Shown here in pieces: positions 102 through 10,959 of a stretch of DNA of 10,959 bases (position 1 is the stretch's first letter; the number at the start of each line of letters is the position of its first letter). The notes under the pieces are model-generated. The model had not been told where the DNA came from, searched no databases, and saw only the letters and a list, made by a program, of their open reading frames with translations. The DNA is from Ghiorsea sp. Lineage in GTDB: Bacteria; Pseudomonadota; Zetaproteobacteria; Mariprofundales; Mariprofundaceae. A program made the position numbers and the translations under genes. The stretch spans positions 1 to 10,959 of the forward strand of contig JALUHL010000111.1 in assembly GCA_027053695.1 (NCBI GenBank), read 5' to 3'.

Positions 102-1004
102 ATGATTAAACAACGTACGCTTGACCATGCGATTCGATGCAGTGGTATTGGTCTGCATTCAGGTAAAAAAGTTGATTTGGTTTTGCATCCTGCGGAAGTG
201 GATACAGGTATAGTTTTTGTCCGTTCTGATTTAAATATTGAAATTAAAGGTCATGTTAGTTCTGTAGTAGATACAAGGCTTTGCACCACGATTGGCAATG
301 GCGAAGCAAGCATTGCTACGGTGGAGCATATCATGTCTGCATTGGCTGGGCTTGGCATTGATAATGCCCGCATTGAAGTCAATGGTCCTGAAGTTCCTGT
401 GATGGATGGTTCCGCATCACCATTCATTTTTTTGATTCAATGTGCAGGCATTGTTGAGCAGAATAAAGCGAAAAAAGTATTGCGTATTAAAAAGCGCATG
501 AGCATCGAAGATGGCGATAAATCTTGTGCTTTATACCCTGCGTCGGGTTTCCGTGTGTCGTATCATTTGGATTATGCGCATCCTTTACTGTCCAACTGTA
601 AAGTCAGTTTCGATTTTTCACGTCAGGGTTATGCTAGAGAAGTAAGTCGCGCGCGTACCTTCGGTTTTATCCATGAAGTGGAAGCTTTGCAAAAAGCAGG
701 TTTAGCGCTTGGCGGCTCTATGGATAATGCTGTTGTGTTGGATAAATATGGCGTACTCAATGAAGGCGGCCTTCGTTATGCCGATGAGTGCGCTCGTCAT
801 AAAGTATTGGATACGGTTGGTGATTTGTTTTTGATTGGTTACCCTATTGTTGGTGCTTTTGAAGGCGAAAAAAGTGGCCATGCGATGAACTCCCAACTTG
901 TGCAAGCCGTGCTCGCTGATGAAACAGCTTGGGTCATCGAAGAGTTAGAAGATACAAATGAAGTGACTGAAAACTCAGGTTTTGCTATCCCCATCCCACA
1001 ATAA
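102..1004 (+). CDS. lpxC: UDP-3-O-acyl-N-acetylglucosamine deacetylase LpxC
   Basis: LpxC is the zinc hydrolase that removes the acetyl group from UDP-3-O-acyl-GlcNAc, the committed cytoplasmic step of lipid A synthesis. At 300 aa it is close to the E. coli length of 305. The expected active-site residues are visible: E75-H76 in TVEHIMSAL, the RARTFGF segment at 183-189, H233, K234 and D237 in ARHKVLDTVGD, and the general acid H260 in KSGHAMNSQL. H76, H233 and D237 should bind zinc, by correspondence with E. coli H79, H238 and D242. MDGSASPF at 101-108 is also typical. The start is supported by AAGGAGG 7 nt upstream. In many proteobacteria lpxC closes the division/cell-wall cluster after ftsZ; here the upstream gene is off the window and ubiE follows after a 134-bp gap. 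Nothing appears truncated. Confidence 0.97.
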   Translation: MIKQRTLDHAIRCSGIGLHSGKKVDLVLHPAEVDTGIVFVRSDLNIEIKGHVSSVVDTRLCTTIGNGEASIATVEHIMSALAGLGIDNARIEVNGPEVPVMDGSASPFIFLIQCAGIVEQNKAKKVLRIKKRMSIEDGDKSCALYPASGFRVSYHLDYAHPLLSNCKVSFDFSRQGYAREVSRARTFGFIHEVEALQKAGLALGGSMDNAVVLDKYGVLNEGGLRYADECARHKVLDTVGDLFLIGYPIVGAFEGEKSGHAMNSQLVQAVLADETAWVIEELEDTNEVTENSGFAIPIPQ

Positions 1005-1138
1005 ACAAACAAAGACAGCGTTTTTTATTTTTCTCACACTCTTCTCACGCTCACTTCAATTTTAAGCATAAACATTCTTAGAAACTTTTTTGATGATTAA
1101 TAGTCAACAATAGAATCATTCGGTGCTACGCTGCGCCT
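1005..1138 (+). other. lpxC-ubiE intergenic region with weak promoter candidate
   Basis: This 134-bp gap has a T-rich run just after lpxC (about 1021-1032) but no clear GC-rich hairpin before it, so a terminator is not demonstrated. Near the 3' end, TTGATG at 1090-1095 and TAGAAT at 1111-1116 could form a promoter, although the 15-bp spacer is short. TAGAAT alone matches five of six -10 bases. The implied start would leave a very short leader before ubiE, which lacks an obvious Shine-Dalgarno. I see no small gene here. Confidence 0.3.
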
Positions 1139-1915
1139 ATGTCTGAACAAGTGAAAACTGAAAATACATCAAACAAACAAACGCACTTTGGTTTTGAAAC
1201 CGTAGATGCAGATAAAAAGGCTGGCAAAGTGATGGAAGTTTTCTCCTCGGTTGCCTACAAATATGATATCATGAATGATGCCATGAGTGCTGGTATGCAT
1301 CGCTTGTGGAAGCGCTCTTTTATTGCCAAAGCCGTGTTACCCAAAGGTGGTATAGCATTGGATGTTGCTGCGGGCTCTGGTGATATTGCCATAGGTTTGC
1401 TAAATAAAGTCAATCGCAAGGCGCGAGTGGTATTAACCGACTTGAATGGGCCCATGTTAGAAGAAGGTGCGCGGCGTGTTTTGGATCAAGGTATGCTTGC
1501 AGGCACTGCCGACTGCATACAATCGGATGGTACCAAGCTTCCTTTTGCCGATAATAGTTTTGATTTGGTCACCATTGCGTTTGGTATTCGCAACTTTGTT
1601 GATGTACCTGCTGGGCTTGCAGAGTTTTACCGGGTACTTAAACCAGGCGGACAATTTATGTGCTTAGAGTTCTCCAAGCCCGTGCTTCCATTGCTGGATG
1701 TGGTTTATGATGCTTATTCATTCAATGTGATTCCTGCGATGGGTGAAATGATTACGGGTGATAGAGATTCCTATCAATACTTGGTGGAATCCATTCGCCG
1801 TTTTCCTGACCAAGCGCGTTTTTCCAAGTGGATTAAGCAAGCAGGCTTTTCGCTTGTGCGTCATGATAATTTAACGGGTGGTGTGGTCGCCATGCATAGA
1901 GGGTATAAAGTATGA
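1139..1915 (+). CDS. ubiE: Ubiquinone/menaquinone C-methyltransferase UbiE
   Basis: UbiE is the SAM-dependent C-methyltransferase of ubiquinone synthesis (and of menaquinone where present), acting on the polyprenyl-benzoquinol ring. The 258-aa protein opens with the family hallmark THFGFETV (15-22) followed by SSVAYKYDIMND (36-47). SAM motif I is DVAAGSGDIA (75-84), the second strand ends at D101 (VVLTDLN), and LPFADNSFD with AFGIRN follows (134-152). YRVLKPGG (164-171), LEFSKP (176-181) and the C-terminal HRGYK (253-257) are all characteristic. The length is near E. coli's 251, with a slightly longer polar N-terminus. No Shine-Dalgarno is visible before this ATG, and the preceding bases are GC-rich (gctacgctgcgcct). 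No in-frame ATG lies between it and the conserved THFGF, so the start is the likeliest. It overlaps ubiJ by 4 bp. Confidence 0.96.
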   Translation: MSEQVKTENTSNKQTHFGFETVDADKKAGKVMEVFSSVAYKYDIMNDAMSAGMHRLWKRSFIAKAVLPKGGIALDVAAGSGDIAIGLLNKVNRKARVVLTDLNGPMLEEGARRVLDQGMLAGTADCIQSDGTKLPFADNSFDLVTIAFGIRNFVDVPAGLAEFYRVLKPGGQFMCLEFSKPVLPLLDVVYDAYSFNVIPAMGEMITGDRDSYQYLVESIRRFPDQARFSKWIKQAGFSLVRHDNLTGGVVAMHRGYKV

Positions 1916-2559
1916 GCGTGATGTTTCTGCCTTTGCGCTTGATTCCAGTGCCTGTGCAATGCGTTGTTTTGGCATCGGTCTTACAAGTCTTTTTTAAGGA
2001 TAATGATGCATTATCAGCGACGCTAGAAGCCTTGGAAGGCAAAGTTTTCCGCGTGTTTATCAAAGATACAGGGGCTGTATTTTTTATAGGGTTTAAGCGT
2101 AGCAATGTGTGGGTGCATCCTTCAAGCCAAGTGCGTCCTGATGTCAGAATTGAATCGACGACCTCTGGTTTTGCAAGACTTAGCTTTGCCAAAGAAGACC
2201 CTGATGCCTTGGTGATGCAAAAGGTATTAAAGCTTTCTGGGGACTCTGAATCTATGCTACTGTTTCAAAAGCTTTTGCAAGACTTGGATTTGGATTGGGA
2301 GCTAGAATTAAGGCGCACGTTTGGCGATTTCTTTGGTCGCAAGGTGGCAAATGCTGCATACAAACTGATTGAAGCAGAGAAGCAACTGAGAAACACATCA
2401 ACGCAGTTGGTGGATGATGCGCTGAAGGCCATGCACACGCCTTCAGAGGAACGGCTGCAACTTTGGCAAGCTGGCGTTGAATCAGTGACTCGAAAAACGC
2501 AAAAGGTCGGGCGGCATTTGGATAAATTAGAACATTTGGCAGCCCAAGCAAAAGTATGA
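1912..2559 (+). CDS. ubiJ: Ubiquinone biosynthesis accessory protein UbiJ (SCP2 domain)
   Basis: UbiJ is a lipid-binding accessory factor that, with UbiK, helps the soluble Ubi complex handle hydrophobic intermediates (known from E. coli). The 215-aa product has an SCP2-like domain over roughly residues 15-125. The C-terminal part contains a charged helical stretch (about 150-212, EAEKQLRNTSTQLVDDALK onward) likely to form coiled coil. LSGDSESMLLF (108-118) followed by LDLDWE (125-130) and LRRTFGD (133-139) corresponds to the conserved UbiJ segment 'GD...LDIDWE..L....GD'. It starts inside the ubiE stop (ATGA overlap, 1912-1915), which implies translational coupling, and ubiB begins 7 nt after it. 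This ubiE-J-B order is the standard proteobacterial one and is the main support for naming so divergent a family. E. coli UbiJ is 201 aa. Confidence 0.88.
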   Translation: MSVMFLPLRLIPVPVQCVVLASVLQVFFKDNDALSATLEALEGKVFRVFIKDTGAVFFIGFKRSNVWVHPSSQVRPDVRIESTTSGFARLSFAKEDPDALVMQKVLKLSGDSESMLLFQKLLQDLDLDWELELRRTFGDFFGRKVANAAYKLIEAEKQLRNTSTQLVDDALKAMHTPSEERLQLWQAGVESVTRKTQKVGRHLDKLEHLAAQAKV

Positions 2560-2566
2560 GAAAGCT

Positions 2567-4165
2567 ATGAGATTTAAAGGCTTACGCCGTAATATAAGGC
2601 TTCTTTTTATTATCCATGTCTTGGCAACACATGGGCTGGCAGCCATGGCTGTGCGCTTAAGGTTATTCAGCCCTTATATTTGGCTGCTTAGTTTATTTAG
2701 CCAAGAATACAGACCCAAAGAATTGGGTGTACAAATTCGGGTCGCTTTAGAGCGGCTTGGGCCAAGCTTTATCAAATTTGGACAAATGCTTTCTACTCGC
2801 GTGGATTTATTGCCTATGGATGTGGCATTGGAGCTGAAAAAGCTTCAAGATCATGTGCCGCCAGAGCCTTTTGATGTGGTGGAATGCCTATTAAATAAAG
2901 CTTATAAGCAAGATGCCTTGGGTGAGGGCGGGCTGTTTGCATCGTTTGATAAAGAGCCAGTTGCTGCAGCATCGATTGCTCAAGTTCACTTTGCGACATT
3001 GCACAATGGGCAAGAAGTTGCCGTGAAAATCCGCAGACCAAACATCGATAGAATGATTGAGGCGGATTTATCGATATTGCGCATGTTGGCGGCATTATTT
3101 GACCGCTATTTCCCCGAATATGAGCGCTTAAAAGCGCCGCGTGTTGTCGAAGAATTTGCTGTGACCATTTTGGGTGAGCTAAATCTTCGCTCAGAGGGTG
3201 CGCATGCCAGCCGCTTCGCCGATCAAGTGAAAGATTTAGAAGGTGTGGGTGTACCAGAAGTGTTTTGGGATTATACCAATACCGATGTGTTGGTAACTGA
3301 GCGAATTCATGGCATACCTATTGATGAGCGTGATGCTTTGATGGCTGCAGGGCATGATCCCTTTACCATATGCAAGAATCTGCAAAACATGTTTTTTCAC
3401 ATGGTGTTTATCCATGGTTATTTCCATGCGGATTTGCATCCTGGCAATATCTTTGTATCCAAGGAAGGAAAAATACTATTGGTTGATTTTGGTATTGTTG
3501 GTCGCCTGGAAATGCAGAGCAGAGTGTATCTTGCGGATATGATGCTGGCTTTTTTGAAGCAAGATTATAAACGCGCTGCCGAAGTACATGTTGAGGCAGG
3601 GTATGTGCCTTATGATACAGATGTTTCAGCTTTTGAAGATGCTTTGCGTGAGATTGCCGTACCTATTTTCAATCGGCCGCTTAAAGATATTTCGATTGCT
3701 GAATTATTGTTTTATCTATTCGCAGTGACCGAGCGCTTTCAAATGGAAACCCAGCCGCAACTTTTATTATTGCAAAAAAGTATGGTGGTCATTGAAGGTG
3801 TGACCCGTGAACTGCACCCTGATATCAATATTTGGGAATTGGCAAAACCCCTTATTTCTAGCTGGGCGATTGAGCATTTAGGCCCCAAAGGTAAAGCCCA
3901 ACGTTTGTTGCAAGAGAGCAAGCATTATATCCATGCTTGGATGCATTTACCTGAGGATATCAATGCTCACCTTAGCGAACTTGAAAAGCGTTTGGATAGA
4001 CGTACTCAGACATCTGCGACCATGTCTATGCTGCCACTATTGCTGCTTGTGTTTGGTGGCTTAAGCATTGGTTTTGCATGGCATCAGCCCGCGCTTTCAT
4101 ACCCGTGGGCTTTGGGGGCTTTGCTTATGGTTTCAGGGTTTTGGCTACAATGGAAACAAAAGTAA
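2567..4165 (+). CDS. ubiB: UbiB, ADCK/COQ8-family atypical kinase-like protein
   Basis: UbiB belongs to the COQ8/ADCK atypical kinase family, membrane ATPases needed for ubiquinone synthesis whose exact role is still debated. In the 532-aa protein the hallmarks appear in order: KFGQ (70-73, the KxGQ motif), the Ala-rich loop AAASIAQVH (133-141) that replaces the usual glycine loop, the ATP-binding lysine K154 in VAVKI, the catalytic-loop FHADLHPGN (286-294), and DFG (307-309). Two hydrophobic helices close the protein (about 487-504 and 513-527), as in E. coli UbiB. The usual ELDxxxEAxN motif reads ELNLRSEGAH (204-213), with D to N, A to G and N to H changes. The start lies 7 nt after the ubiJ stop, with only the weak purine stretch GAGAAAG in front, so coupling to ubiJ is likely. 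It converges with fumC. Confidence 0.96.
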   Translation: MRFKGLRRNIRLLFIIHVLATHGLAAMAVRLRLFSPYIWLLSLFSQEYRPKELGVQIRVALERLGPSFIKFGQMLSTRVDLLPMDVALELKKLQDHVPPEPFDVVECLLNKAYKQDALGEGGLFASFDKEPVAAASIAQVHFATLHNGQEVAVKIRRPNIDRMIEADLSILRMLAALFDRYFPEYERLKAPRVVEEFAVTILGELNLRSEGAHASRFADQVKDLEGVGVPEVFWDYTNTDVLVTERIHGIPIDERDALMAAGHDPFTICKNLQNMFFHMVFIHGYFHADLHPGNIFVSKEGKILLVDFGIVGRLEMQSRVYLADMMLAFLKQDYKRAAEVHVEAGYVPYDTDVSAFEDALREIAVPIFNRPLKDISIAELLFYLFAVTERFQMETQPQLLLLQKSMVVIEGVTRELHPDINIWELAKPLISSWAIEHLGPKGKAQRLLQESKHYIHAWMHLPEDINAHLSELEKRLDRRTQTSATMSMLPLLLLVFGGLSIGFAWHQPALSYPWALGALLMVSGFWLQWKQK

Positions 4166-4189
4166 CAGACAAATAATAGGTTACTTTTG
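4157..4189. terminator. Inverted repeat over both stop codons, possible bidirectional terminator
   Basis: CAAAAGTAAC at 4157-4166 and GTTACTTTTG at 4180-4189 are perfect 10-bp reverse complements separated by 13 nt. The ubiB TAA (4163-4165) and the fumC TAA (4181-4183 on the + strand) both lie in the stems. In either direction the RNA forms a hairpin whose 3' arm contains four U's. The stem has only three GC pairs per arm and no long U-tract follows, so it would be a weak intrinsic terminator. The only alternative site in the 15-bp gap is none, which favours some role in separating the convergent transcripts. Confidence 0.5.
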
Positions 4190-5563
4190 CGGTGATAGCA
4201 TGGTGGTTGGGTCTAGCAATGTATCCAGCTCAGCTTCTGGAAGAATGCCTTCAAGCAAACAAATGTCGCGGACTGTTTTGCCTTCTTTTACTGCTCGTTT
4301 GGCAATGCTAGAGGCTTTTTCATAGCCAATGACGGGTGCAAGCGATGTCACCATGCTCATGCTCCACTGAATTTGTTGCTCACATTTCTCAATATTGGCG
4401 GTTAGACCATGAATGCATTTGTCGGCAAACATGATACAGGCATTAGCTAGTATTGCTTCAGACTCAAGCACATTGTGTGCAATGATGGGAAGCATCACAT
4501 TCAAGTCCAATAAACCTGATGCGCCACCAAAGGTAATTGCAGCATCATTGCCAATCACTTGCGCACAAACTTGAGCCATGGACTCAGCAATCACAGGGTT
4601 GACTTTTCCCGGCATGATGGATGAACCAGGCTGCACTGCAGGCACGTTGATTTCCGCAATACCGCATCTAGGCCCCATGTTTAATAAACGCACATCATTA
4701 GCAACTTTCACCAAAGAAACAGCAACAGTTTTAAGTGCGCCAGACAACTCTACAGCAGCATCTTGCGCAGCTTGAGCTTCAAAATGATTGGCAGTTTCTG
4801 TAAATGTGATGCTATAACTTTCTGATAAAGCTTTGGCCATGCGTGCGCCAAATTCAGGGTGTGTGTTGAGCCCTGTGCCCACGGCTGTGCCGCCTTGTGC
4901 AAGTTCTGTGATGCGTGGTAAACAAGCTTCTAATCTGCTGATGCCCAACTCAACCTGCCTAGCCCAGCCAGAAATCTCTTGGCCAACCGTGATGGGGGTT
5001 GCATCCATCAAATGGGTGCGCCCAATTTTAATCACGGCTTGGGTTTCTTCTGCTTTTTGTTCAAGGCTTTGCTGCAAATGTTGTAGCGCAGGAATCAGTT
5101 TGTGTACCAGTTCATCGGCTGCTGCAAGGTGAATAGCGGTGGGAATCACATCATTGGAAGATTGCCCCATATTCACATCATCATTGGGATGTATGCCGAG
5201 TGAAGCATTGATTTGTGCGCAGCGATGCGCAATGACTTCATTGGCGTTCATATTGGTGGATGTACCTGAACCTGTTTGGAAAATATCCAAGGCGAAATGT
5301 TTATCCCACTTTCCTTCTGCGACTTCATTCGCGGCTTGGGTGATACATGCTGCTTTATCAGCATCCAACTTTTCAAGCGTTTGATTGACTTGGGCAGCAG
5401 ATGCTTTGATGCGCCCCAAAGCTTTGATGAATACGCGGGGAAACCTTAAATCTGAAACGGGAAAATTCTCAATGGCGCGTGCAGTTGATGCGCCATACAT
5501 GGCCGATTCAGGGACTTGCATTTCACCCATAGCATCGTGTTCAGTGCGTGTTTTATTGGTCAT
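4181..5563 (-). CDS. fumC: Class II fumarate hydratase (fumarase C)
   Basis: This is the oxygen-stable, iron-independent fumarase of the TCA cycle, a cytoplasmic homotetramer that interconverts fumarate and malate. With the ATG at 5563 it is 460 aa, against 467 in E. coli. Numbering from that ATG: TGSGTSTNMN (97-106), SSND (135-138), GRTHLMDATP (181-190, containing the catalytic-site histidine H184) and the mobile signature loop GSSIMPGKVNP (313-323). Fumarase is favoured over aspartase or argininosuccinate lyase by HPNDDVN and overall similarity. A GTG directly precedes the ATG, but GGAG lies 5 nt before the ATG and only 2 nt before the GTG, so I chose the ATG. It overlaps the upstream phosphatase gene by 11 bp and is the last gene of the - strand operon, an unexpected place for a central-metabolism enzyme. 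Confidence 0.96.
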   Translation of the reverse strand: MTNKTRTEHDAMGEMQVPESAMYGASTARAIENFPVSDLRFPRVFIKALGRIKASAAQVNQTLEKLDADKAACITQAANEVAEGKWDKHFALDIFQTGSGTSTNMNANEVIAHRCAQINASLGIHPNDDVNMGQSSNDVIPTAIHLAAADELVHKLIPALQHLQQSLEQKAEETQAVIKIGRTHLMDATPITVGQEISGWARQVELGISRLEACLPRITELAQGGTAVGTGLNTHPEFGARMAKALSESYSITFTETANHFEAQAAQDAAVELSGALKTVAVSLVKVANDVRLLNMGPRCGIAEINVPAVQPGSSIMPGKVNPVIAESMAQVCAQVIGNDAAITFGGASGLLDLNVMLPIIAHNVLESEAILANACIMFADKCIHGLTANIEKCEQQIQWSMSMVTSLAPVIGYEKASSIAKRAVKEGKTVRDICLLEGILPEAELDTLLDPTTMLSPQK

Positions 5564-7187
5564 CACTACTCCGTTTTAAGCATAACATGGTGATATCATC
5601 ATCGCGAGTATGAAAGCCTTTTTCATCCAAGCAAGCAAGCATGGATGATGGCAATACCGCAGGGTCTAAGGCATGGCGAAGCTGAAACCAAGCTTCCACA
5701 TTTTTATCACCAAACATTTCTTTTGCGGCATCTCTTGCTTCTGTGATGCCATCGGTGCATGCAAATAGTGTGTCATTCACACCAAGCTTGCTTGTTTCAA
5801 CATGCAGATTGATATGTTCTAGCATGCCCAGCGGTGGTGATGTGGCTTCAAGATGGGTGATGCTATCTTTGTGCCATAAAAGTGGTGGGATATGCCCTGC
5901 ATTGATCCATTGTAAGGTATGGTTTTGGTGATTGAGCTCAGCCATAAATAGAGTGACGAAGCGCCCGCCTTGCAAGGATTGATGCAAGGATTGATTGATA
6001 TAACTTGCTGCATCCAAAAGGCTAATGTTTTCACCATTGGCAAGGGCATGCAGCATAGCTTGAAGGTTAGCCACGGTTAACGCAGCGGGATAACCTTTAC
6101 CTGCCACGTCGGCAATAATCAACCAGATGGAACCATCATGGCGCGTAATATAATCATAATAATCACCACCCACAGCATGACAACTTTGTTGAAAGCCTGC
6201 GATGGCATAGTGGGGGATATTAGGTTCTCCCTTGGGCATCAGCCCTTTTTGAATATCGCTAGCAATAGCAAGCGAATCTTTGAGGCTATCTCGCTCTTTT
6301 AAGCCTGCAAGAGCAGTGTTTAACCCCCGAGCAAGCTCACCCATTTCATCATCAATCATGATGGCGACATGACCATCAAACTTACCTTGTCTTAGAAAGT
6401 TAAGCCCCATGGCTAGCTCTCGGGTAATGCGATGAATCGTGCGGCTGGTAATCCATACCAGAGCCATGCCACCAAAAATAAGGTTGGCGAATAAAACAAT
6501 GGCTTGCATGAGAATAAAGTGTTGTTCTGCATCATCGTTGGTGCCTAGCATTAACCATGAAAACAGTGCCAAAATACTTACCGGTAATAAGCTGGTCACG
6601 CCAAAAATCAGCCAAGGGCGATTGGCAGAGCGAATCAGCCATGGATAAGTATGAAAATGTTCTAAATCACCAATGAATAAGTTTTGTAAGGATAGTTTTT
6701 TACGCGCTTTGGCCATCCATGCCATGGTCAAGGCGATAGCAGTAGTAGGAATAAGCACCCCTAAGCCAAAACCAACGCTAAAAATCAACGCGGTCATCAT
6801 GCGTGGCGTGAAATCATTATCCAAGACCAAGGAAGAAAGAAAAATCACACCCAAAATAAATACCACAGCGATAAGCCCTGCTAGGGCAAAGCTTTTGAGG
6901 GCGCGCATGGGTAACACGGCCATAGCCTGCTCTAGCGATTGATGCGTATTTGAGCGTAGAGCTTCTTGAATGGGATGGTGTGCCCAGAAGGCGCTAGCTG
7001 CAAAAATAGCAAGGAAAATTAATGGGTTGAAAAAGAATAACCATGCTGGGATATGTGTAATCAAAGGGTTATCTGTTAGGCGGATAACGCTTTGTGCAAA
7101 AAGCAACATCACAGGAATCACCCATAAACTTTTTAAGTATTGGCTGACATCAATATGCTGGATATGTGGCTCTAAATTACTTTGCAA
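5553..7187 (-). CDS. Membrane HAMP-SpoIIE/RsbU-type PP2C serine phosphatase
   Basis: This is a predicted inner-membrane protein phosphatase of the PPM/SpoIIE family, whose relatives dephosphorylate Ser/Thr in partner-switching regulators. From the chosen start it has about 544 aa. Six hydrophobic helices lie near 21-37, 47-68, 97-122, 130-158, 192-214 and 224-246. A HAMP-like linker follows (about 247-296), then the catalytic domain (about 311-536). The metal-binding motifs are VGGDYYD (339-345), ADVAGKG (359-365), NAGH (429-432), TDGITEA (478-484) and DDDITML (529-535), so it looks catalytically intact. I chose the TTG at 7187 because GGAG lies 7 nt upstream and it overlaps the PII-like gene stop by 11 bp. 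The upstream in-frame ATGs (7250, 7241 and the ORF limit near 7349) lie deep inside the PII-like gene without good ribosome sites. The substrate is unknown; no STAS antagonist or anti-sigma kinase is in the window. Confidence 0.88.
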   Translation of the reverse strand: MQSNLEPHIQHIDVSQYLKSLWVIPVMLLFAQSVIRLTDNPLITHIPAWLFFFNPLIFLAIFAASAFWAHHPIQEALRSNTHQSLEQAMAVLPMRALKSFALAGLIAVVFILGVIFLSSLVLDNDFTPRMMTALIFSVGFGLGVLIPTTAIALTMAWMAKARKKLSLQNLFIGDLEHFHTYPWLIRSANRPWLIFGVTSLLPVSILALFSWLMLGTNDDAEQHFILMQAIVLFANLIFGGMALVWITSRTIHRITRELAMGLNFLRQGKFDGHVAIMIDDEMGELARGLNTALAGLKERDSLKDSLAIASDIQKGLMPKGEPNIPHYAIAGFQQSCHAVGGDYYDYITRHDGSIWLIIADVAGKGYPAALTVANLQAMLHALANGENISLLDAASYINQSLHQSLQGGRFVTLFMAELNHQNHTLQWINAGHIPPLLWHKDSITHLEATSPPLGMLEHINLHVETSKLGVNDTLFACTDGITEARDAAKEMFGDKNVEAWFQLRHALDPAVLPSSMLACLDEKGFHTRDDDITMLCLKRSSDDQ

Positions 7188-7554
7188 GTGATGGCTCCAT
7201 TGCCTTGCTATCAACTTCGGTTTGTTGGGCAATATACGCATCATCAACATTGGGGCTGATGATGGATTGTTTAATGGGTGTAACATAAATGATGCCACCG
7301 TGTGGGCGATGCAAATCGGCGGTATGATACATATGTTCAAAGATTTCATCGGCTTGTTTGGTGGGGACTAAAACAGAGAAAATTGTTTTTTCTGTTTGCT
7401 GACCCAAGCCCTGCGTAGAAGGGGTGATGGAGCTTCGCCCTAAACCACGCGCAAAATGGCTAATCACAGCCTGAAGGCCAAAGTTCGCATCAAGGCTTTG
7501 CACGGTATCTTGGGCTTTATCTTCTGCCGCTATGCAAGTGATAAGCTTAAACAT
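7177..7554 (-). CDS. PII-like small regulatory protein, divergent second copy
   Basis: The 125-aa product has the ferredoxin-like PII pattern: strand LITCIA (4-9), helix, strand QAVISHFARGLG (28-39), a loop rich in Ser, Thr and Gln (about 40-54), strand EKTIFSVLVP (55-64), helix ADEIFEHMYHTADL (68-81), and strand GGIIYVTPI (86-94). It is paralogous to the gene just upstream (LITCI, RGLG against HGHG, ILVP/VLVP, IFEKM/IFEHM, GMIYL/GIIYV) but strongly diverged. It also carries a longer polar tail (from about 98). No GlnB-type uridylylation tyrosine loop is recognisable. The ATG at 7554 overlaps the previous stop by 8 bp (ATGTTTAA). Earlier in-frame ATGs would extend it deep into that gene and add residues unlike the family. 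The ligand is unknown. Confidence 0.78.
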   Translation of the reverse strand: MFKLITCIAAEDKAQDTVQSLDANFGLQAVISHFARGLGRSSITPSTQGLGQQTEKTIFSVLVPTKQADEIFEHMYHTADLHRPHGGIIYVTPIKQSIISPNVDDAYIAQQTEVDSKAMEPSLAK

Positions 7555-7930
7555 CAGACTTTTGCGCATCACTGGCAGATATCGCATCCAAAATATGCTG
7601 CGGGATATAAGTGGCAGCTTTTTCAATGCGGGTTAAATAAATCATGCCCATGCCAGGTGTATCCAAGTGCCCAGCTATCGACATTTTTTCAAATATCATA
7701 TCGCATAAATCGCTGGGTACGAGAATGTTTACAATTTCTTTTTCTGCATTGATGGCAACGGAAAGTATGCCCAACATCTCCTGCACACCATGCCCATGCC
7801 CATAATGAATGGTTGCGCCTTGTGCACCTGCATCTTGGGCAGCTTTGAGCACAGCTTTAGCGCGGCCACGCTGCACAATGCATGTAATCAAAAACACATC
7901 CGTTAATACATTGATATGTTGCACACTCAT
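7547..7930 (-). CDS. PII-like signalling protein adjacent to DUF1538 gene
   Basis: The 127-aa protein follows the PII-superfamily fold: strand VFLITCIVQRG (12-22), helix RAKAVLKAAQDAG (23-35), strand ATIHYGHGHG (39-48), a short loop, strand EKEIVNILVP (63-72), helix LCDMIFEKMSIAGHLDTPG (75-93) and strand MGMIYLTRI (94-102). PII proteins are usually trimeric and bind nucleotides plus a small metabolite, then dock on a membrane or enzyme partner. This one lacks a canonical GlnB T-loop tyrosine, so it is a PII-like and not a classical nitrogen PII protein. The segment HGHG with nearby H42 and Y43 could sense metal or another ligand, but that is speculation. GGAGAGG lies just upstream, and the ATG overlaps the DUF1538 stop (ATGA, 7927-7930). 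The obvious candidate partner is that membrane protein. Confidence 0.85.
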   Translation of the reverse strand: MSVQHINVLTDVFLITCIVQRGRAKAVLKAAQDAGAQGATIHYGHGHGVQEMLGILSVAINAEKEIVNILVPSDLCDMIFEKMSIAGHLDTPGMGMIYLTRIEKAATYIPQHILDAISASDAQKSDV

Positions 7931-9690
7931 GCCGCCTCTCCTTGAACTTGTTGATCCATAGCGCGATGTTTTTTATGCACTTTGTATTGCACCCAAAGCC
8001 CAGTCAGCAAGACAGTGAGTATGGGGCCAATGGAAGCAAGTGATAAAATACCAAACCCTTCAATCGCATCCACAGCATTACCCAAACCTAACCCCATCGC
8101 CAACACCAAGGGCACAGTGATTGGCCCAGTGGTAACCCCAGCACTATCCCAAGCGACATTAACAAATTCTTCGGTGGACAGCCATGTGAGCAACAATGCC
8201 AAGGTGTATAAAGGCATCAATAAATATGCCAGCTTCAAACTGAAAATAATTTTTAAGACACCCAGCGCAATGCCGCAGGCGACACCAAAAGCCACTGCAT
8301 AAATCAGTACTTTTTTCTCAAATGCGCCATTGGTTAAAGTATCCACAGTATTACCCAAGGCATTGAGCGCAGGTTCGGCAACAGTTGCACCAAAGCCTAA
8401 GATAAAGGCAAAAATCAGCGCAATACCTATGCCTATGCTCCACGGATAAATGGGCGATTCACTGACATGCTCCACGGCTGTGAAGGCGGCTGATAATAAG
8501 CTTCCCGCTTGTGCGCCTAAGGCAGTTAGCCCATAGCGTAAACCAATGCTGAATATAATCATGCCCAAGACACATAAAATGATGCCGTAGGCAATAATAC
8601 CTGGTGTGGGCAACTTCTCGCGCAATAAAACGCGAAGCACAATCATCAAAAATACCACCAAAGGCACAATGGCTTGAAGCCCAGCTAGCACTTCTTGCAT
8701 AGGGCTTTCTGCATACCATGGAATTGCTGAAGCTGCACTATGCATACCAGCATGAGCAGCAGCGATAATGGCTTCTGGAGTGGTGCTAGCGGCAACAAAT
8801 AAACTCAGCAGCAATACGCCAATGATAGGGAATAAAGATGCCAGTGTGACAATGCCAAATCCTGATAACGCGCTAACGCCACGCCCAGAAGCAGAGGCAA
8901 TGCCAATGCCAAGTGCCAGCACCAGCGGTACGGTGACAGGGCCCGTGGTCACTGCACCGCAATCCCAAGCAAGCCCAAGTGTTTTGCTAAGTTCAGCATC
9001 TTGCATACACCATGCAGTCAAACCAAGTGCAGGCGCAAGAGAGCCATAAATAAAATATTTTAAGCTCCAATTATAAAGCAAACGAAGCGTGCCAAGCACG
9101 ACAGCTAAACCCACGCCAAGCCCAACAATCAAAACCAATGTGGTGCTCCAATCATTAAGCAAGGTGTATAAATAAGGTGCGTTCTCAACTTTTAAAATAC
9201 TGCCTGCCGCTTGCAACGCACCAATCGCAGGTTCAGCAAAGGTGACGCCTATACCCAGCAAAAACGCAACCAAAAGCACTGTGGGCAAAGAGACTTTAGC
9301 AGGAAGGTTATGACCAATGGTTTCACCAAAAGGCATCAGCCCTTTGCTTAAGCCCTCCATAAATAGCATCAGCCCAAGCACCACAGCCGCAAGCCCCAAT
9401 AATATTTTCACAGGCTCGCTAACGATTTGGTTGAGTACCAAGGTTTGAAATAGAATCAGGTAAACAGCAAGGGGCAAAACCACTTTGATTTGCGCAATAA
9501 ACCGCGATGAAATATAGGGTGCGAGCAACCTATAAATGTCAATACCGCGCAAGGAGGCGCGTTTTTTCTTTCGAGACTGTTGGCGTAAAGCAAGCTGCCG
9601 ATGCGCAAAATCATTGAAGCTGATGATGTTCTGCCGCAAAGAAATATGACGAATTAATTTCCCATAACGAATTTTTTGCGGCTTATCCAA
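7927..9690 (-). CDS. DUF1538 family multi-spanning membrane protein with two internal repeats
   Basis: The 587-aa protein is predicted to be integral to the inner membrane, with many hydrophobic helices from about residue 68 to 567. It resembles the DUF1538 family, whose function I do not know to be established; a transporter or channel is inferred. Two halves are clearly homologous: TFAEPAIGAL (150-159) pairs with TVAEPALNAL (436-445), VTTGPVTVPLVLALG (247-261) with VTTGPITVPLVLAMG (519-533), and GFGIVTLASLFPI (277-289) with GFGILSLASIGPI (545-557). Conserved acidic, proline and Thr-Thr-Gly-Pro positions inside hydrophobic surroundings suggest paired substrate sites, as in inverted-repeat carriers. 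The first ~65 residues form a strongly basic, probably cytoplasmic extension. The start is TTG, with AAGGAG 8 nt upstream and an in-frame TAA further upstream; the next in-frame ATG falls inside the membrane part. It is the first gene of the five-gene operon. Confidence 0.88.
   Translation of the reverse strand: MDKPQKIRYGKLIRHISLRQNIISFNDFAHRQLALRQQSRKKKRASLRGIDIYRLLAPYISSRFIAQIKVVLPLAVYLILFQTLVLNQIVSEPVKILLGLAAVVLGLMLFMEGLSKGLMPFGETIGHNLPAKVSLPTVLLVAFLLGIGVTFAEPAIGALQAAGSILKVENAPYLYTLLNDWSTTLVLIVGLGVGLAVVLGTLRLLYNWSLKYFIYGSLAPALGLTAWCMQDAELSKTLGLAWDCGAVTTGPVTVPLVLALGIGIASASGRGVSALSGFGIVTLASLFPIIGVLLLSLFVAASTTPEAIIAAAHAGMHSAASAIPWYAESPMQEVLAGLQAIVPLVVFLMIVLRVLLREKLPTPGIIAYGIILCVLGMIIFSIGLRYGLTALGAQAGSLLSAAFTAVEHVSESPIYPWSIGIGIALIFAFILGFGATVAEPALNALGNTVDTLTNGAFEKKVLIYAVAFGVACGIALGVLKIIFSLKLAYLLMPLYTLALLLTWLSTEEFVNVAWDSAGVTTGPITVPLVLAMGLGLGNAVDAIEGFGILSLASIGPILTVLLTGLWVQYKVHKKHRAMDQQVQGEAA
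7996..9492 (-). repeat. Protein-level internal duplication in the DUF1538 gene
   Basis: Residues about 67-297 (9492 down to 8800) and 340-565 (8673 down to 7996) are two copies of one domain. Aligned landmarks, copy 1 against copy 2, are LGLMLFMEGLSKGL/LGMIIFSIGLRYGL, AEPA/AEPA, TTGPVTVPLVLA/TTGPITVPLVLA and GFGIVTLAS/GFGILSLAS. The order and spacing are preserved, which points to ancient gene duplication and fusion. The DNA itself is diverged, so this is not a recombination repeat. Boundaries are approximate. Confidence 0.85.
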
Positions 9691-9719: not shown

Positions 9720-9748
9720 AGTATAGAATAAAAAGGATTATTTCACAA
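9720..9748 (-). promoter_or_regulatory. Candidate sigma70 promoter of the DUF1538-PII-phosphatase-fumC operon
   Basis: On the - strand, TTGTGA (9748-9743, four of six -35 matches) is followed by exactly 17 nt and TATACT (9725-9720, five of six -10 matches). Transcription would start near 9713, giving a leader of roughly 20 nt that still contains AAGGAG. The -35 lies immediately beyond the metalloprotease stop and inside a hairpin arm. Confidence 0.55.
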
Positions 9749-9763
9749 TGTCATAGGTGAAAT
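9740..9763 (-). terminator. Small hairpin with T-run after the metalloprotease gene
   Basis: ATTTCAC and GTGAAAT form a perfect 7-bp inverted repeat (9740-9746 and 9757-9763) with a 10-nt loop that contains the protease TGA stop. On the - strand the stem is followed within 5 nt by TTTTT. It could be a weak intrinsic terminator, but the stem is AT-rich. It could equally be an operator, since it covers the candidate -35. Confidence 0.4.
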
Positions 9764-10959
9764 TTAGGTCTTTTCCGTGTCTGCAGGAGTAAAGTGATGC
9801 CTGCGAAAGATAGCAATATCCATGGTGAAAAAGCAGCGCTTACGCAGCCACCACCACTACTGGATGATGTTGATGTAAAGGTGGTTCCACCACCACCTGA
9901 AGACAAAGAAGGTAAAGCTGTTGTTACGCCATCAGTTAAGTGCCAAGTCATGGTATCATCTGTTGCTGAGGTATTGGAAATCACAAAGGTGACTTTAGCT
10001 GTGCCAGCAGGGGCTGACCATGAACCTTGGCCACCTGTTAAGGCAATGGGTTGAGCAGTGTAAGCACCACCTGCAGCGCTTTGAACCAATGCAGAAACCT
10101 TTGCTGTGCCATTGGTTGTAAAGGTATATGTTGCATTGGGCGCATTGACCAGTTCATAAATGGTGGATAAGTGCTTTTGTTTGCCAGAAAAAGGGCGTAA
10201 CGATTGGGTGGCATCGCTGCTAATATTCATCGCTCCATTATTGAATAATCTGTCGCCCCATGCGATAGGATAATCAGCGCCCATTTGATATTTACTCACA
10301 TCGATATTCCAAATGCCAAATTCATGGAAAGCTGCGGCAAGAGAGGAGTTGTATGTAGCGCCTTTAAGCACGCTATCAATAGCAGAATAGGTATTGTTGC
10401 CAGCCGTGGTTGCGCAGGCAGTGAGTATATCTTTGGCTACCGCATCACCAAACTTGTCCGATAAATAACGAATCCACATAAAGCGCCCATATTGCTCCAA
10501 ACCATTACCACTTAAGCCAAAGGAATCCAAGTGTAGTTCTGGGTAATCTTGGCTGCCTGATTCACGTTTGCCATTGCCATTGATATCGGTGAATGATTCA
10601 CCAGCACTGTATTGTCCATCACCATTACTATCCACATACACTTCACCAATGTATTGAAGATTATCTTTGATGGTGGGGTAGTTTTTATCTTCCATCCATG
10701 TGCTTAAGGATTCAAGAAATGCTGGAAATTCGGAGCGGTCATAACCATTTTGGATGCTATGGAAAAATTCATGGGCAAGGGTCACTTTAGCAGCATTGGT
10801 TGACCCTTGAGGAAATTCTGCAAAATCATTATCGACAACCATATGCGTGAACAAACTATGTGCGTAAGGTGTAGCAGGGATATAAGTGTTAGGTGGGAGA
10901 TCGCTAGTGACATAACCATAAACACCTTTACTACCTACATTGAGCAAGTAAATATCATA
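9751..10959 (-). CDS. Secreted zinc metalloprotease, MXAN_6640-like, 5' end missing
   Basis: The reading frame is open to the window edge, so the N-terminus with any signal peptide is missing; 402 residues are visible (numbered here from the edge). HEFFH (63-67) within VTLAHEFFHSIQNGYD is an HExxH zinc site, and E83 or E90 in FLESLSTWMED may give the third ligand. The surrounding sequence resembles the putative metalloproteases named after MXAN_6640. An insertion at about 109-134 holds DSNGDGQYSAGE, a perfect EF-hand-type calcium loop, and DINGNGKRESG, a partial second one. A beta-rich C-terminal region precedes a Ser/Thr/Gly linker, then GGGC (369-372), one hydrophobic helix (about 377-394) and RKRPK. 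That tripartite tail resembles CTERM sorting signals, so surface anchoring or processing is likely. The substrate is unknown. It lies on the same strand as the operon and 60 bp upstream of it. Confidence 0.82.
   Translation of the reverse strand, partial: YDIYLLNVGSKGVYGYVTSDLPPNTYIPATPYAHSLFTHMVVDNDFAEFPQGSTNAAKVTLAHEFFHSIQNGYDRSEFPAFLESLSTWMEDKNYPTIKDNLQYIGEVYVDSNGDGQYSAGESFTDINGNGKRESGSQDYPELHLDSFGLSGNGLEQYGRFMWIRYLSDKFGDAVAKDILTACATTAGNNTYSAIDSVLKGATYNSSLAAAFHEFGIWNIDVSKYQMGADYPIAWGDRLFNNGAMNISSDATQSLRPFSGKQKHLSTIYELVNAPNATYTFTTNGTAKVSALVQSAAGGAYTAQPIALTGGQGSWSAPAGTAKVTFVISNTSATDDTMTWHLTDGVTTALPSLSSGGGGTTFTSTSSSSGGGCVSAAFSPWILLSFAGITLLLQTRKRPKFHL

Follow-up and report, generated by a model that had tools for sequence, protein, structure and literature searches.

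The window, the whole 10,959-nucleotide stretch analyzed here, comes from a 71%-complete assembly of Ghiorsea sp. (GCA_027053695.1, contig JALUHL010000111.1) and carries five consecutive genes on the reverse strand. From upstream to downstream, these encode a long fused, UmpA-UmpB-like DUF1538 membrane protein (7927..9690, 587 aa, TTG start); a conserved PII-like protein, PII-1 (7547..7930, 127 aa); a fast-evolving PII-like protein, PII-2 (7177..7554, 125 aa); a PP2C/SpoIIE-type phosphatase with a membrane N terminus (5553..7187, 544 aa, TTG start chosen); and a probable class II fumarase of the FumC type (4181..5563, 460 aa). The first-pass annotation had named these families and reported overlaps of 4, 8, 11, and 11 bp. 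The names agree with Pfam and NCBIfam and, for the fumarase, with a ranking of PDB sequences, and the overlaps hold, given the chosen starts. A tidy-looking operon can turn out to be two units, and the five genes are indeed two separate units lying end to end, a DUF1538-PII-PII trio and a PP2C-fumarase pair.

Components of the trio

The DUF1538 protein matches PF07556 in two stretches (4.8e-109, 363 bits versus a cutoff of 22.6). Each half alone passes this cutoff (185.7 and 184.3 bits), and the two halves are homologous to each other (hhalign E value of 1.5e-28). The characterized pair of this family, UmpAB of Halomonas zhaodongensis, is described as a Na+(Li+,K+)/H+ antiporter (PMC5484666), which bears out the earlier view of DUF1538 as a transporter. 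The NCBIfam models give 216.2 bits for UmpA (cutoff of 490) and 165 bits for UmpB (cutoff of 500). Both equivalog cutoffs are missed, and the protein is therefore not claimed as an UmpAB equivalog; judging from its sequence, it is best described as a fused UmpA-UmpB relative. The first ~66 residues (9493..9690, reverse strand) form an N-terminal extension that serves as a marker of the two-PII form. It contains 16 Lys/Arg residues against 3 Asp/Glu, would be cytosolic by the positive-inside rule, and is a putative element for docking or gating by PII. The structure model of the membrane protein is moderate (pLDDT of 75, with about 48-66 in the N-terminal extension), and comparison of this moderate model with SbtA or other solved transporters gives nothing above the stated noise. 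Sequence searches of PII-1, PII-2, and DUF1538 against solved structures return weak or zero matches.

PII-1 and PII-2 both pass the PF00543 cutoff (32.1 bits for PII-2), and profile and fold alike place them in the PII superfamily; PII-2 has 34 relatives by sequence. Canonical GlnB/GlnK proteins have Lys90, Arg101, and Arg103 in the adenylate site and Tyr51 in the T-loop. The GDGK motif of the canonical PII of this genome is replaced by GMGM and HGGI in the two PII-like proteins, neither of them has the IRIR motif, and there is no Tyr in the shortened T-loop of either. PII-1 and PII-2 are thus without residues that serve adenylates and uridylylation in canonical PII. Cysteines are found at positions 17 and 76 of PII-1 and only at position 7 of PII-2, and the C-terminal redox R-loop Cys pair of the SbtB type is present in neither protein. 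An apparent PII-PP2C fusion in a related locus, L040, was rejected, as its open frame crosses a 100-N assembly gap.

In the window and the same-genus loci, the DUF1538/PII-1 junction is a 4-bp ATGA overlap in 12/12 cases, and the PII-2 ATG lies 8 bp ahead of the PII-1 stop codon in 10/10; alternative in-frame starts are also present at these junctions. All three trio genes are under purifying selection. In comparisons with five relatives, dN/dS lies at about 0.04-0.07 for both DUF1538 and PII-1, 0.12-0.23 for PII-2 (three unsaturated comparisons), 0.06-0.10 for PP2C, and 0.08-0.12 for the fumarase, with synonymous sites near saturation and three values uncomputable. A promoter-like TTGTGA-17-TATACT sequence is present (9720..9748, reverse strand), ending 30 nt from the DUF1538 start codon. 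Support for the promoter placed earlier in front of the five genes is weak: 9 such sites are found versus a mean of 21.4 in shuffled sequences, i.e., they are rarer than expected by chance. Of 12 upstream regions aligned, window included, about 5 keep the block (by eye), and it is altered or absent in the others.

Association of DUF1538 with PII genes

PF07556 is found in 72/78 genomes of the class sample and in 125/398 genomes of the phylum sample. Most of the listed places of these matches were fetched, yielding 119 distinct DUF1538 units, and in 113 of these a PII gene follows on the same strand. The 113 comprise 87 split pairs with one PII, 19 long fused forms with two, 3 short fused forms with one, 3 further fused forms with one (L039 and L053, cut at contig ends, and L103, which has no extension), and the fused unit of L099, downstream of which lie its own PII and that of a neighboring split pair. 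The spacing between DUF1538 and PII is never gene-sized, the largest gap being 179 bp (L008). The six units without a downstream PII are the L099 split pair, L094, L112, L063, and two that are truncated at contig ends (L035 and L038). L094, L112, and L063 are natural exceptions and would be useful controls.

The second PII goes with the N-terminal extension. In the class and phylum set, duplicates included, a profile built on the N-terminal ~66 residues matches 26/27 long fused open reading frames (ORFs) and 0/210 of the split or short fused type. When only distinct units followed by 1 kb of sequence or more are counted (54 end-cut units left out), two PII genes are found in 18/19 extension-bearing units, the 19th being L040 with its assembly gap, and thus in 18/18 gap-free ones. 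The 46 units without the extension include 42 with one PII, four with none, and 0 with two.

A scan of named genomes, seeded by the PII-1 alignment and with the best 80 of 279 loci kept, shows the same arrangement. DUF1538 lies upstream of PII-1 in 78 of the best 80 loci, and the other two, L173 and L174, start at a contig edge. A second PII is present in 79 of the best 80; the exception, L202, has a fused DUF1538 without the extension and a single PII. In this set, the extension profile matches 67/68 long fused, 2/4 mid-length, and 0/9 short ORFs. An automatic count finds two PII genes in 62/67 extended units, and in the remaining five (L200, L210, L217, L227, and L244) both are present, outside the length or distance limits of that count. 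The two-PII long fused form is thus a distinct class, in which the extension is tied to the second PII.

According to record titles, the two-PII trio in the best 80 named loci falls under about eleven phylum-level groups. The titles include Gamma-, Alpha-, and Zetaproteobacteria, Bdellovibrionales, Myxococcales, Campylobacterales, Nitrospinota, Planctomycetota, Elusimicrobia, Lentisphaerae, Opitutales, Acidobacteriia, Cloacimonadota, and Lindowbacteria; most of these genomes are metagenome bins, and individual taxon assignments may err. Distances of the trio members correlate (Mantel r of 0.49-0.65, 0/2000 permutations each). Shared neighbors offer no clue to the substrate, as no noncore family occurs in more than 7/70 trio loci. 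DUF1538-PII units of different types adjoin each other in L113, L118, L099, and L222 (split with long fused, short fused with split, or short with long), and the adjoining of unlike units suggests distinct jobs.

The PP2C-fumarase pair

The phosphatase matches PF07228 (1e-43, 150 bits versus a cutoff of 25) and contains the metal-site motifs GGDYYD, DVAGKG, TDGITEA, and DDDITML. The HAMP domain assigned to it earlier is not supported: there is no Pfam match to it at an E value of ≤0.1, and residues 231-303 show only weak matches to sensor kinases. For the fumarase, the best 37 PDB sequences are all fumarases, with 506 bits versus 385 for the top aspartase. The protein scores 569.6 bits with TIGR00979, under the cutoff of 664.75, and passes the cutoff of the PRK12273 aspartase subfamily (546.2 versus 510).

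At an E value of ≤1e-40, PP2C is found in 52/398 genomes of the phylum sample, all of this class, 14 from the genus of the window and 38 from others. Loci were fetched from 20 of the 38 non-Ghiorsea genomes (L145-L164), and in 20/20 of these fumC follows PP2C, a signaling phosphatase riding with a metabolic gene, with zero DUF1538 or PII matches in the stretch. Five of these 20 genomes (G040, G049, G056, G063, and G069) encode the long trio on a separate contig. Conversely, among the best 80 of the 279 named loci, PP2C lies beside the trio in the ten Ghiorsea-like ones, largely the same genomes as the same-genus set, and in 0 of the 70 others; in L234, a distant PP2C-like frame is found on the opposite strand, 3 kb from the trio. 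The survey of neighborhoods thus gives a divided answer to the first-pass annotation, as DUF1538 with tandem PII genes recurs widely and PP2C adjoins the trio only in Ghiorsea-like loci. The PP2C-fumarase pair is a unit of its own, specific to this class, and in Ghiorsea it sits downstream of the trio.

These data bear on the possibility that the five genes form one integrated pathway, in which the phosphatase would set a phospho-signal coupled to transport by way of the PII pair and the fumarase would be the metabolic output. The window shares its five-gene order with 9 further Ghiorsea loci, and L040 agrees except for the assembly gap over its PII genes. However, ubiB likewise keeps its place behind the fumarase in 7/9 relatives with room for it (not in L041 or L043), so that order within the genus is weak evidence. 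An RsbW-like kinase and a STAS protein are the usual partners of such phosphatases, and genes for both lie 2.6-8.7 kb from DUF1538 in six Ghiorsea loci. They are, however, part of a run that diverges from DUF1538, and in L154, a locus without DUF1538, a kinase fragment adjoins PP2C at the contig end (62% identity over 29 residues, in 1/20 loci). The PII-2/PP2C and PP2C/fumarase junctions are also variable: in the same-genus loci, likely PP2C starts fall at +8 to +14 and use ATG, GTG, or TTG, and likely fumarase starts range from +29 to -11. With the pair apart from DUF1538 in 20/20 loci and from the other 70 trios, a single five-gene pathway is highly improbable, and the earlier proposal that the phosphatase ties transport to a phospho-signal is not borne out.

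The kinase/STAS pair lies upstream of DUF1538 at 6558-7339 in L275, 7311-8089 in L276, 5772-6532 in L277, 3124-3895 in L278, 8567-9348 in L279, and 7347-8128 in L280, and the run continues with ubiD- and gpmI-like genes (named by eye). In G045, G047, and G048, the best kinase match is on a different contig or about 1 Mb from PP2C. The kinase and STAS proteins are candidate partners of PP2C, and no tie of theirs to DUF1538 was found in these loci.

The window contains further genes on either side of the five. Upstream of DUF1538, at 9751-10947 on the reverse strand, is an MXAN_6640-type HExxH metalloprotease with a sorting-type tail (weak match); it is present at several Ghiorsea loci and missing at L034/L277. 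On the forward strand, 102-4165 holds a run of lpxC, ubiE, an SCP2 protein gene, and ubiB, convergent with the fumarase gene.

Possible PII control of the transporter and comparison with known systems

Ammonium and bicarbonate transport are established cases of PII gating. The genes at 9690-7177 probably encode a self-contained PII-gated cation/proton antiporter with two dedicated noncanonical PII-like proteins. The near-constant presence of PII next to DUF1538, in the phylum sample and beyond, makes the earlier suggestion that a PII-like pair may gate this transporter a good reading. PII-1 and PII-2, made together with the transporter from overlapping genes, would dock on its cytosolic face, and docking of PII-2 would depend on the basic N-terminal extension as the likely contact. 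The docked proteins would then act as posttranslational brakes or tuners of Na+(K+)/H+ exchange, responding to an internal signal other than the usual ATP/2-oxoglutarate code. umpA and umpB together are reported to suffice for activity in Escherichia coli (PMC5484666); PII would therefore be dispensable for activity, which favors a brake or a tuner.

The direction of control is not readable from gene order, and the transporter could itself be the sensor, sequestering the PII-like proteins and freeing them for metabolic targets, with no gating. There is precedent in AmtB-GlnK, where PII docks on the ammonium channel and GlnK is sequestered at the membrane. This explanation appears unlikely, as the tie between the N-terminal extension and the second PII suggests a physical fit to the transporter and the two proteins are without the residues by which canonical PII switches. 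It is also conceivable, if somewhat doubtful, that the long fused form carries another solute, with PII gating a different transport step. Its scores are far under the UmpA and UmpB equivalog cutoffs, a single characterized DUF1538 pair is described among the papers found (PMC5484666), and long fused units have split or short fused neighbors in L113, L118, and L222, which suggests different jobs; however, both halves pass the Pfam cutoff.

Several points weigh against a PII-gated antiporter. PII might report the transport state elsewhere rather than gate. Since both equivalog cutoffs are missed, the substrate may differ from that of UmpAB. Weaker PF07556 matches, listed without places, lie outside the 119 units; within them, L094, L112, and L063 have no PII despite room for one, and the L099 split pair has its PII on the opposite side. 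The named scan, being seeded from PII-1, cannot gauge how often the long form lacks PII, and correlated distances are equally expected from block inheritance or transfer.

An extension of the gated-antiporter reading, which we offer only tentatively, is that the two different PII-like proteins, one slow and one fast evolving, read ion, pH, or redox state rather than adenylates and 2-oxoglutarate, perhaps within a mixed trimer or acting as two sensors. With its second PII tied to the extension, the trio might then represent a widespread new class of transporter control. If a cation/proton antiporter family in many phyla has a dedicated PII, and one branch of it a nearly strict PII pair, then PII control would reach into ion and pH homeostasis. 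A family listed in Pfam as being of unknown function would also gain partners and a testable rule, namely, that the second PII accompanies the extension.

The DUF1538-PII-PII trio is widespread and undescribed in the literature searched; PII-gated transporters themselves are already known. No published link of DUF1538 or Ump to PII was found in that literature, outside of which lie most subscription journals, supplements, and preprints. PII terms are absent from the main text of the DUF1538 papers searched, and a term search of the main text of the UmpAB paper (PMC5484666) likewise gives no mention of PII. UmpAB is also named in passages of papers on cable bacteria.

The phosphatase resembles the RsbU/SpoIIE type in its catalytic motifs and in the kinase and STAS genes nearby in six Ghiorsea loci but differs in that its constant neighbor is a fumarase (20/20), with a kinase fragment adjoining in 1/20. 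Like UmpAB, the trio transporter consists of two homologous DUF1538 units, with one Pfam family covering both halves; unlike UmpAB, it is a single chain that has an additional N-terminal region and is accompanied by two PII genes, and it misses the equivalog cutoffs. In SbtA-SbtB, the cyanobacterial bicarbonate transporter is described as bound by a PII-like regulator (PMC13249358, PMC10117731). The trio shares with it a PII-like protein dedicated to a transporter, which that protein probably binds here too, but has two PII paralogs, a different transporter family, and no C-terminal R-loop Cys pair of the kind described for SbtB. With AmtB-GlnK (PDB 2ns1), it shares the PII fold and the adjacency of transporter and PII genes. 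However, its PII-like proteins have no equivalents of Tyr51, Lys90, Arg101, and Arg103, and the canonical PII of this genome is encoded at a separate locus (L132), beside an Amt-like gene (named by eye).

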